DNA from: a virus
Direction: 5' to 3' (one strand)
IMG/VR virus record: IMGVR_UViG_3300042462_000039
Coordinates: 1-29,201 of that record
Length of the DNA stretch: 29,201 nt
Shown here: positions 12,927 through 28,581 of the stretch, one piece after another
Position numbering within the stretch: position 1 is the first letter of the stretch
How the letters are laid out: each line of letters opens with the position of its first letter
The notes under the pieces: model-generated
What the model was told of the DNA's origin: nothing
What the model saw: the letters and a program-made list of their open reading frames with translations, nothing else
Database searches by the model: none
Program-made: the position numbers and the translations under genes

Positions 12927-13628
12927 TTATGCTTCTCCCGCTTGTCTTGATGCCAAAGTTACCTTATTCCCTTTATACATCCCTGCACCCATTTCATCTA
13001 TTTTGCTAAATGGAAGTATTGGAACTGATAAATCAGCTATTTTTAATTTGTCTATAAAATATATATATTTCAATTGAAACCCTTCTATTGGCTTTGCTTG
13101 TCCTGTTTCTAATAAATGCCTACTATAATATTTTCCATTTATAGATGGATAGTTTTTATTATCTAATGTTTTTTTAGCTACAATTTTACCATCCCAATTC
13201 AATATTTGTTTATTTTCTTTAACCCCTATTAAATTAAATCCACTTGCCCTGTATATTGTTCCATCTCCACATTGACTGCCATCTGCAAAACTAATTATCC
13301 ATTTTATATGTGGTGCATTTTTTTTTAATAGTTTAATTGTTATTGCAATACATCTACTTTCGCTATACTTTGGCAAATATTCATCAAATGCCATTCGGTT
13401 AAGTTCAATAAATTCATTCCATCCTGTATTTTTAACTGTTGCACCAACTTTGTATTTATCCATTGAATTGCCATAACTTAAAACTCCGTGCATTTTACCA
13501 TCTAAAAAACAACCAAAATGTACTGTACTATTAGGCACAAATTTACCTGAATAATGGTTTAATTTAACAAACTCATTAGCCACTTTACTAGATATAACTT
13601 TTACTAGGATTTCCTTTGCTCTGCCCAT
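12927..13628 (-). CDS. Mom-like DNA modification protein (GNAT-fold)
   Basis: A 233-residue protein resembling phage Mu Mom, which modifies adenines in phage DNA and protects against restriction. Visible motifs in order: LNHYSGKFVPNS at 23-34, a strand FGCFLDGKMHGVLSYG at 38-53, FIELNRMAFDEYLPKYSESR at 73-92, and WIISFADGSQCGDGTIYRASGF at 110-131. The 'ELNRM...SESR' and 'FAD...GTIY.ASGF' blocks are the family hallmark. It overlaps the ParB-like gene by 25 nt. The coding sequence is clearly more AT-rich than the neighbouring terminase genes, suggesting separate acquisition. The exact chemical modification cannot be read from sequence. Confidence 0.82.
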   Translation of the reverse strand: MGRAKEILVKVISSKVANEFVKLNHYSGKFVPNSTVHFGCFLDGKMHGVLSYGNSMDKYKVGATVKNTGWNEFIELNRMAFDEYLPKYSESRCIAITIKLLKKNAPHIKWIISFADGSQCGDGTIYRASGFNLIGVKENKQILNWDGKIVAKKTLDNKNYPSINGKYYSRHLLETGQAKPIEGFQLKYIYFIDKLKIADLSVPILPFSKIDEMGAGMYKGNKVTLASRQAGEA

Positions 13629-14188
13629 TGCATTATTATTAAATATAAAGCGTTACCATTTGAATTTTCGTTACCCATTGTTTCTGCATATTTATATTCT
13701 TCGGTGCGTTTAATTTCCTCAATAGCATTTTTTAGTTGTGTAGCCTGTTCATCTGCTAAAGTAAAAGTCATTTGCTGAAAAGGAGATTTATCGCCATCAG
13801 GCAAACTAAATCCTTCGCCTAAATCCTCAACATTATCAAACCCAATTATATCTAATCCCCATTCTTGAATTAAATCTACATCCCAATTGTTTGCCAATTC
13901 CGACCAATCGTGTGAGCCAAATGAAACATTATCTTTAATTATAAACTCTTTCTTTTGTGCTTCAGTTAAGTCTTTCGCTTGTTTTACTGGAACGTCTTTT
14001 AATCCTGCTTCAATACAAGCCTTTAGCCTCATATTGCCTCCAAGTACCATATTGTTTTCGTCTATTACAATAGGTCGAAGTTCAAGCATTTGCGGAAAAT
14101 CTTGAATAGACTTTACAAGTTGCTTAAACTTATTGTCCTTTATCAGGCGTGGATTGTTTGGATTTGGTTTAATATCTGTTATTAGCAT
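13604..14188 (-). CDS. ParB/Srx-domain protein
   Basis: A 194-residue protein with an N-terminal ParB/Srx nuclease-like fold: ITDIKPNPNNPRLIKDNKF, LVKSIQDFPQM, RPIVIDENNMVLGGNMRLKA at 38-57 (the ParB GG-x-R box) and CIEAGLKDVPV. Next comes a segment (about 73-115: LTEAQKKEFIIKDNVSFG, HDWSELANNWD) typical of phage ParB proteins near methyltransferase or modification genes. The C-terminal 60 residues are helical. There is no HTH for plasmid-type parS binding. The start uses TAATG overlap with the zinc-ribbon gene. It is likely a partner of the Mom-like protein. Confidence 0.82.
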   Translation of the reverse strand: MLITDIKPNPNNPRLIKDNKFKQLVKSIQDFPQMLELRPIVIDENNMVLGGNMRLKACIEAGLKDVPVKQAKDLTEAQKKEFIIKDNVSFGSHDWSELANNWDVDLIQEWGLDIIGFDNVEDLGEGFSLPDGDKSPFQQMTFTLADEQATQLKNAIEEIKRTEEYKYAETMGNENSNGNALYLIIMQWAEQRKS

Positions 14189-19901: not shown

Positions 19902-19955
19902 AATTGTTTGGTTTAATTGTTATGTAAATATCAAAAAAGTTATTGACACTAAAAA

Positions 19956-19990
19956 GTTAAAGTTGTTAAAAAAGTGTTAAAATTGTTAAA
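19956..19990 (+). repeat. GTTAAA iterons
   Basis: GTTAAA occurs at 19956, 19965, 19976 and 19985, forming two pairs GTTAAA-N3-GTTAAA spaced 20 bp apart. Two helical turns between pairs place them on the same face of DNA, as expected for operator or origin iterons. Confidence 0.7.
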
Positions 19991-20108
19991 ACTATTGATA
20001 ATCAAGTAGTTATGAGTAGTAATTGCATTAATTTTTCCGATATGTCAACTTTTAAGAGTGGAAAACTTAAAATATCAAGTAGTGTAATTTGGACAATACC
20101 CGAAATAG

Positions 20109-20136
20109 TGTCACAAATATTGCAAAATATGTGACA
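20109..20136. promoter_or_regulatory. 28-bp near-perfect palindrome, operator candidate
   Basis: Arms TGTCACA and TGTGACA are perfect. In total 12 of 14 positions of each half match the other half around a central GC. It lies in the middle of the divergent control region. A dimeric DNA-binding protein, possibly the product of the adjacent HTH gene, is a likely ligand. Confidence 0.75.
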
Positions 20137-20216
20137 TAATTAGGGTTAATTCGGAGTTTGTTTGTAATAGAATTATAAAAAGTTGTTGTACTTAAATTAG
20201 AAAGTTAAGCTATTAT

Positions 20217-20243
20217 TATACTTTATGGGTTTTATAAAGGATA
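20217..20243. promoter_or_regulatory. 27-bp inverted repeat next to the rightward promoter
   Basis: TATaCTTTAT and ATAAAGgATA match in 9 of 10 positions and are separated by 7 bp. It ends 6 bp before the -33 TTTG of the rightward promoter, a good place for an autoregulatory operator. Confidence 0.55.
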
Positions 20244-20249
20244 AGTAAA

Positions 20250-20281
20250 TTTGATATTACGTTTAAATAAAAGTATATTTG
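20250..20281 (+). promoter_or_regulatory. Rightward Bacteroidota-type promoter
   Basis: TTTG (20250-20253), 20 nt, then TATATTTG (20274-20281), matching the -33 and -7 consensus. The ATG of the GIY-YIG gene begins 4 nt later at 20286, so transcription would start at or very near the start codon (leaderless). Confidence 0.7.
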
Positions 20282-20285
20282 TGTT

Positions 20286-20987
20286 ATGAAGTACACAAAT
20301 TTAATTTATGGTTTAAGAGACCCAAGAAATGATGTATATAAATACATTGGTAAAACTACTGTTGGAGTTAAAAGACCGCTTATGCATTTAAGAAAGTCGC
20401 ATAATATTCTTGTTAATAAATGGATAGATGAATTAAAAGAAATTAACCTTTCCCCAATTGTTGATATAATAGAAAATAATGTGTCTTTAGAACAATTGTC
20501 AAATAGAGAGAAGCATTATATTTATTATTATTCAGGTATTTCAGACCAATTGTTTAATGGAGGAGAAAGTGCAATAGAAACTATATCAAAGCCTTCTATA
20601 CTTTCAGATACTGATATTAATTCTTTATACATTTCTTTTTTAAACACAAGAGAAATATATAAACTATTTAAATCTTCTACATCTTTTAGTGATGCCGTAA
20701 TAGCAAATGTTTTAGGGGTTGGTAGAAAAACAGTATATCGTATTAAAGAAGGCAACATAAAAATAAATATGGAAACTATATTTAAGTTGATTGTTTTTAT
20801 ACAAAAAGGAACTGCAGATGTTTTTGAACACTACTATTCAAATTCAAATGAATTTCAGGGCAAATATCCAGATTCATATGCAGATTTTATAAAAGAATGT
20901 ACAATTAATGATAGATTTTGCACTAAGTGGTTTACTTCATTTTATAATGAAATAACAACTAAAGATAAAAAATTATATGGGATATAA
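20286..20987 (+). CDS. GIY-YIG domain / helix-turn-helix protein
   Basis: A 233-residue protein and the only plus-strand gene. Residues 1-95 show the GIY-YIG fold: LIYGLRDP (Tyr8), YKYIGKT (Tyr20, Gly22, Lys23), Arg30 or Arg36 in a RPLMHLR helix, the catalytic-type Glu75 in NREKHYIYYY, and Asn91 in FNGGES. Residues ~134-172 carry an HTH: SFSDAVIANVLGVGRKTVYR, then IKEGNIKINMETIFKLIVFI, like phage repressor DNA-binding domains. The C-terminal 60 residues are unassigned. It stands alone beside palindromic operators, the place of a repressor in temperate phages, yet carries a nuclease fold. It may be a free-standing homing enzyme or a regulator using a GIY-YIG scaffold. Confidence 0.8.
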   Translation: MKYTNLIYGLRDPRNDVYKYIGKTTVGVKRPLMHLRKSHNILVNKWIDELKEINLSPIVDIIENNVSLEQLSNREKHYIYYYSGISDQLFNGGESAIETISKPSILSDTDINSLYISFLNTREIYKLFKSSTSFSDAVIANVLGVGRKTVYRIKEGNIKINMETIFKLIVFIQKGTADVFEHYYSNSNEFQGKYPDSYADFIKECTINDRFCTKWFTSFYNEITTKDKKLYGI

Positions 20988-21000
20988 TGTATAAAGGACT

Positions 21001-28041: not shown

Positions 28042-28581
28042 TTAAACGTATCTTAAATTTGTTCTATTTGGATTTTGTCCTATCATCATTGAATTCAATG
28101 TACCCTTTTTAATCCCAATAGAATCTGCCGCTTCTTGTAATCCGTTATAAAAAATGCCAGTTAAATCGTTTAAAATTAACTTTCTTTTCTTTAAACCACC
28201 TTTTATGCCATTTTCTTTACCTACTCTTTTACCTGTTTGTCTTACTGCATCTCTTTGTTTTTGACTATTATAACTAAATCCATTTTTATATGAATGCAAT
28301 TGATTTTCTGAATCAGTAGCCCATTCTAAATTTAATAAACAATTATCGTTTTTAATACCATTTAAATGATTTACTGTTCTTTTATTTTCTTTATTATCTA
28401 AATACGCTTCAGCTACTAATCTATGAATTAATAAATGCTTATTACCATTATTATTAAATAATTGAACTTGTTGATAACCATTAGCTACACTATGTGGCTT
28501 TAACCATTTCATAGTATAAAGACTAAATACTTTACCTGTAAGAGTAATTAAATAATTAGGATAATTTGTTATTTGTCTCAT
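28042..28581 (-). CDS. Free-standing HNH homing endonuclease (NUMOD4-HNH-NUMOD1)
   Basis: A 179-residue protein. Residues 1-30 form a NUMOD4-like lead (YPNYLITLTGKVFSL, WLKPHSVANGY). The HNH_3 nuclease spans ~50-95: HLLIHRLVAEAYLDN (His53, Arg54), TVNHLNGIKNDNCLLNLEW (Asn71, His72, Asn80) and ATDSENQLHSY. A C-terminal NUMOD1 HTH (GIFYNGLQEAADSIGIKKGT) at about 142-160 binds DNA. It lies between two tail genes in the same orientation, the usual place for a mobile gene inserted between structural genes. Clearly AT-rich. Confidence 0.88.
   Translation of the reverse strand: MRQITNYPNYLITLTGKVFSLYTMKWLKPHSVANGYQQVQLFNNNGNKHLLIHRLVAEAYLDNKENKRTVNHLNGIKNDNCLLNLEWATDSENQLHSYKNGFSYNSQKQRDAVRQTGKRVGKENGIKGGLKKRKLILNDLTGIFYNGLQEAADSIGIKKGTLNSMMIGQNPNRTNLRYV

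Follow-up and report, generated by a model that had tools for sequence, protein, structure and literature searches.

I-TevI, the endonuclease of the phage T4 td intron, combines a GIY-YIG catalytic domain with a 75-residue linker containing a zinc finger and with a minor-groove helix-turn-helix (HTH). It is also a transcriptional autorepressor, and its operator resembles the homing site (PMC2988022). The free-standing GIY-YIG homing endonuclease genes of T4, which encode SegA to SegG, lie between other genes, some of them in tRNA regions (segB) (PMC2988022); seven of the free-standing T4 genes are cassettes that lack a promoter, and segD alone is antisense. In the T5orf172 homing genes and in Odn of phage ICP1, a GIY-YIG-superfamily nuclease of the T5orf172 subfamily is joined to an exchangeable DNA-binding domain, with RepA_N and CapR zinc finger domains as the examples (PMC8263062, PMC10448857). 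The closest bacterial enzymes act in restriction: PD-T4-3 is a 5hmC-specific GIY-YIG restriction endonuclease that is named as a defense enzyme in its PDB title, and the wH-GIY-YIG modification-dependent endonucleases Ahi29725I and Apa233I are type IV restriction enzymes that carry a winged-helix domain in the reverse domain order (PMC11037411).

The gene described here lies in a window of 29,201 nucleotides (positions 1 to 29,201 of IMG/VR virus record IMGVR_UViG_3300042462_000039), which holds a near-complete siphovirus-like genome whose terminase, portal, capsid, tail, RecT-like, DnaA-like, and exonuclease genes are all on the minus strand. A 127-bp terminal repeat indicates that little or nothing of the 29.2-kb phage genome is missing. 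The gene is the only plausible plus-strand gene in the window, as the first-pass annotation had reported, and the block at 20 to 21 kb is the only one with a positive GC skew. Its product has the catalytic domain of I-TevI with an identical active-site layout, but the gene is not part of an intron, and the DNA-binding domain is a Cro/C1-type HTH that comes within ~15 to 20 residues after the nuclease. Like the seg genes, it is free-standing and intergenic, although its DNA-binding domain differs from theirs; unlike the promoterless T4 cassettes, this copy has its own promoter and runs antiparallel to all other genes. It resembles the T5orf172 genes and Odn in pairing a GIY-YIG-superfamily nuclease with an exchangeable DNA-binding domain, PD-T4-3 in the fold of the nuclease domain, and Ahi29725I and Apa233I in pairing GIY-YIG with a domain of the HTH superfamily. 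From the T5orf172 genes and Odn it differs both in nuclease subfamily and in the kind of DNA-binding domain. On the basis of the comparisons presented below, we consider it very probable that the gene is a free-standing homing gene encoding a GIY-YIG endonuclease whose DNA-binding domain is of the repressor type. No description of a GIY-YIG homing enzyme with a Cro/C1-type HTH was found in the literature searched, the coverage of which was partial.

TABLE 1 Features at the nuclease gene, in window coordinates
Feature	Position	Strand	Details
Predicted free-standing endonuclease gene, GIY-YIG plus Cro/C1-type HTH	20286-20987	+	ATG start, 233 aa
GIY-YIG nuclease domain, aa 1-95 (~95 residues)	20286-20570	+	Residues invariant in relatives; structural match to I-TevI catalytic domain
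Cro/C1-type HTH domain, ~aa 111-176	20616-20813	+	AF2 model matching HigA/HipB/SinR/C-protein structures; weak Pfam/PHROGs HTH matches
Bacteroidota-type promoter inside the unit	20250-20281	+	TTTG (20250), 20-bp spacer, TATATTTG -7 box (20274-20281), 4 bp before ATG
Phage-owned palindrome, outside the mobile unit	20109-20136		Outer arms kept in gene-less L066; degenerate copy in L065
Weak palindrome CTTTAT-N7-ATAAAG, spanning the left edge of the unit	20217-20243		Absent from closest homologue
Putative mobile unit, promoter plus ORF, ending at the stop codon	20225-20987	+	Common to window and L003; flanks from empty relatives

A GIY-YIG nuclease domain joined to a Cro/C1-type HTH

The first-pass annotation had recognized a GIY-YIG core, with its key Tyr, Arg, Glu, and Asn residues visible, and an HTH in a single protein. 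Both parts of this description hold, and the window protein is confirmed as a GIY-YIG nuclease domain joined to a Cro/C1-type HTH. The active-site residues Y8, Y20, G22, R30, H34, and E75 (window-protein numbering) showed no variation across 45 aligned relatives, and N91 was likewise invariant across the 40 relatives that are full length. Since the full-length AF2 model matched solved structures only through its HTH, the nuclease domain was modeled separately. Residues 1 to 100 were modeled with confidence (pLDDT 86), and structure comparison identified the beta-beta-alpha-beta-alpha fold of the GIY-YIG superfamily in the model. The nuclease-domain model matched the I-TevI catalytic domain (1ln0; Z score of 9.1, rmsd of 2.5, 82 aligned) and PD-T4-3 (Z score of 9.0 to 9.1, ~20% identity) at the same level, and UvrC (1yd6) with a Z score of 6.3. 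Residues ~111 to 176 were modeled as an HTH of the Cro/C1/HipB type.

Profile searches of the relatives identified the same two domains. The window protein itself falls below the threshold for the Pfam GIY-YIG family (PF01541), which 21 of 40 relatives match (E ≤ 0.01); HTH_3 (Pfam) is matched by 26 of the 40 and the group I intron endonuclease family TIGR01453 by 9, and the nuclease part of 21 to 23 of them matches PHROGs named homing endonuclease. A group I intron at the gene was considered and rejected, as Rfam gave no match; the gene is a stand-alone ORF in an intergenic region, outside any intron or intein. The family genes are intact, and the dN/dS ratios point to purifying selection (0.06 to 0.35 in 13 of 14 pairs; the remaining pair is near-identical). 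Relatives are as short as 185 aa, and the family may be a source of small nucleases that cut at specific sites and use a recognition fold that is well understood.

Occupied and empty sites

Eighty related phage loci were gathered via the neighboring exonuclease. Five relatives (L063, L064, L065, L066, and L069) kept the whole neighborhood and lacked the gene at the site; the proteins of their neighboring genes (p64, p89, p60, p65, dnaA, and recT) are 63 to 100% identical to those of the window, mostly >90%. None of the 80 loci encodes a relative of the window gene, and a search of whole records of the relatives with the family profile gave no match in 46, whereas the same query recovered 12 of 12 positive controls. 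The gene is polymorphic, being present or absent at one site among otherwise near-identical phages. By itself, this pattern could reflect loss of the gene, but the boundaries shared with L003, described below, argue for insertion. In L065, the p89-p60 gap is wider and holds a different open frame of 147 codons (L065:11524-11967), most of which falls where the other relatives carry no gene.

For the junctions, each flank was aligned locally, as global alignment produced spurious gaps. L003, an unrelated phage with another neighborhood, shares with the window only the stretch from position -61 to the stop codon, at 79% DNA identity. The empty relative L066 aligns with the window as far as 20202, and in the empty relatives L063 and L069 the match resumes at 20990. 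Given these flanks and the stretch shared with L003, the mobile unit would run from ~20203/20225 to 20987. At its right end, two independent boundaries concur, both falling ≤3 bp from the stop codon; in the window, L020, and L149, right-hand homology resumes 0 to 3 bp past the stop codon. Members L018, L019, and L020, which are 90 to 92% identical, have 53 to 55 bp in common upstream and almost nothing downstream; L027 and L028, at 97% identity, have 167 bp upstream and 56 bp downstream in common. Taken together, these comparisons show that the promoter-plus-ORF unit occurs in unrelated phage neighborhoods, and they indicate that the gene has probably been mobile recently.

Promoter and neighboring palindromes

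The promoter in Table 1 was identified using the Bacteroidota consensus (PMC9723704). Of 44 distinct upstream regions from the family, 22 carry a TAnnTTTG box, where 3.9 would be expected. In a sister group of the family, TGTAT-N8-ATACA dyads overlap the promoter, and 13 of the 20 occurrences of this pattern in 1.62 Mb of fetched loci lie ≤60 bp upstream of sister-group genes; this count is suggestive, since the pattern was picked after inspection and then counted and its copies are related by descent. The dyad was not found at the window gene, and the only dyad in the window group, TTGTGT-N8-ACACAA, extends across the start codon and is partly coding. The sister-group dyads fit autorepression as it is known for I-TevI, and it is plausible that genes of this family repress their own promoters.

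The first-pass annotation had proposed two adjacent palindromes as binding sites for the protein. Both exist as sequence, but as operators of the gene they were rejected, given that gene-less L066 retains the outer arms of the first and that the second is missing from L003, the closest homologue, and straddles the unit boundary. The first palindrome is strong as sequence and adjoins TTTTAAC repeats and the DnaA-like gene. Because its outer arms (AGTGTCACA...TGTGACA) persist in L066, which lacks the gene and differs in the center of the palindrome, we assign it to the phage, where it possibly belongs to an origin or early promoter. The second palindrome is weak (P of ~0.03 to 0.08 against shuffles). 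No palindrome was found to be conserved upstream of all family members, and the individual upstream dyads were mostly not significant relative to shuffles; the sister-group dyad was the only pattern to stand out. The AT-rich intergenic region at 19920 to 20155, near the DnaA-like gene, carries TTTTAAC-like repeats together with the 28-bp palindrome and is itself a possible replication origin or early promoter.

A lead to the recognition site comes from a TTTAC-N5/6-GTAAA dyad, which is found at the left junction of L020 and in the empty groES sites and, in a similar form, upstream of L018; we regard it as a candidate. The idea that the L020 insertion rebuilds an imperfect TTTACAAATTTGTAAA palindrome was weakened by L165, which has no detected family member and already contains the shorter form.

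In the mechanism that we propose, the target of the HTH would be an intergenic DNA site in a gene-less phage, which the GIY-YIG domain would cut or nick during coinfection; recombination repair would then copy the unit into the break. A weaker step in this scheme is that the same HTH may bind an operator at its own promoter and so limit expression, as I-TevI does. Since the family is compact, has its own promoter, and offers clean pairs of empty and occupied sites, it allows direct tests of how a homing enzyme of the Cro/C1 type recognizes its target and whether it represses its own gene.

Distribution of the family and alternative roles

A profile-based search located the family at 55 loci in viral contigs, with members between genes of unrelated phages. 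A single member came from the genome collection, where it lies on a short contig belonging to a Bacteroidetes metagenome-assembled genome (MAG), and the phage and plasmid collections gave remote matches only. Since the search patterns included the N-terminal motif DPRNDVY, the conservation of this motif is partly a selection effect; L146 to L150, L154, and L157 were found without it, so the family is wider than the set found by pattern. Five members lie inside tRNA arrays (L032, L038, L042, L048, and L056). The arrays of L038 and L056 are large: the stretches fetched hold 30 and 21 tRNA genes, respectively, with the nuclease gene among them.

In L020, the member occupies the gap between groEL and groES, which were recognized from reading the protein sequences. 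This site is empty in L144, L145, L151, and L156, and in L146 to L150 and L157 a different family member is found ~250 bp away. The loci of L043 and L055 likewise have empty relatives (L175, L177, L180, and L182). The groEL and groES genes at L020:3642-5465 belong to a large phage; among the relatives, two or more different GIY-YIG/HTH insertions occupy the gap between them.

More tentatively, we suggest that these genes form a widespread homing-endonuclease family of phages, probably those of Bacteroidota, in which a lambda-repressor-type HTH takes the place of the usual DNA-binding modules. This HTH might have two tasks: binding a palindromic operator to repress the promoter of its gene, and directing the nuclease to a related palindrome in empty alleles. 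The unit would then be a portable, self-limiting cassette of promoter plus ORF.

It is improbable that the phage keeps the gene for exclusion or restriction, as a nuclease comparable to PD-T4-3 or ICP1 Odn that attacks rival phages or host elements, although this account overlaps with homing, since homing enzymes also give marker exclusion. It would accommodate the equally good structural match to the anti-phage nuclease PD-T4-3, the accessory and polymorphic nature of the gene, and the precedent of chimeric GIY-YIG-related phage nucleases that use borrowed DNA-binding domains against satellites (PMC8263062). However, the homing-like unit boundaries, the many unrelated insertion sites, and the matching empty alleles argue against it, as does the PADLOC comparison, in which no model, including that of PD-T4-3, matched the window protein and the matches of the relatives were mainly to HTH and control-protein models. 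If the gene does encode a homing endonuclease, its cutting of empty alleles could incidentally exclude related phages.

It is more unlikely still that a phage repressor or immunity regulator at the lysogeny control position has acquired a nuclease domain. The divergent orientation, the Cro/C1-type HTH, the palindromes nearby, and the PHROGs repressor matches obtained for the HTH part of relatives would all suit such a regulator, and the first-pass annotation had placed the gene in a repressor position. Near-identical phages have neither the gene nor any related gene at the site, however, and a regulator locus was rejected on this basis. PHROGs scans of the window's proteins identified no integrase, in agreement with the first-pass annotation, and no excisionase or other repressor; no lysogeny genes were found in the window. 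The palindromes are phage owned or not conserved, and the homologues, in the groEL-groES gap, tRNA arrays, and other unrelated places, are scattered across unrelated phages like homing enzymes, a distribution that the first-pass annotation had itself set against its regulatory reading. We conclude that the window gene is not the lysogeny repressor of this phage. From the earlier suggestion of a DNA-cutting regulator, the nuclease-HTH architecture survives and autoregulation is plausible, but a switch at a repressor locus does not agree with the absence of the gene from near-identical phages; an extrachromosomal maintenance switch found nothing in its support. Repressor-like features of a phage gene, namely an HTH, divergent orientation, and palindromes nearby, can thus belong to a mobile nuclease, which calls for caution in annotating regulators by position alone.

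A decayed or domesticated homing gene, its nuclease disused and its product now acting only as a DNA-binding autoregulator, would fit the repressor-like HTH, the gene's own promoter, and the dyads at sister-group promoters, but it is scarcely credible given the invariant active-site residues, the purifying selection on the nuclease domain, and the apparent recent mobility of the gene.

Other nuclease and DNA-modification genes were also observed. The window carries a second homing-type gene, which encodes an HNH endonuclease (28042-28581, minus strand; phrog_59, E = 4e-33) and adjoins the tail genes; related HNH genes occupy several positions in L065, L066, and L079. L005, which has a family member, also encodes a separate GIY-YIG protein (L005:12050-12724, minus strand) with NUMOD3-like repeats recognized by eye. 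Finally, neighboring ParB-like and Mom-like DNA-modification genes are located at 12927 to 14188 of the window, on the minus strand, suggesting that the phage may modify its own DNA.
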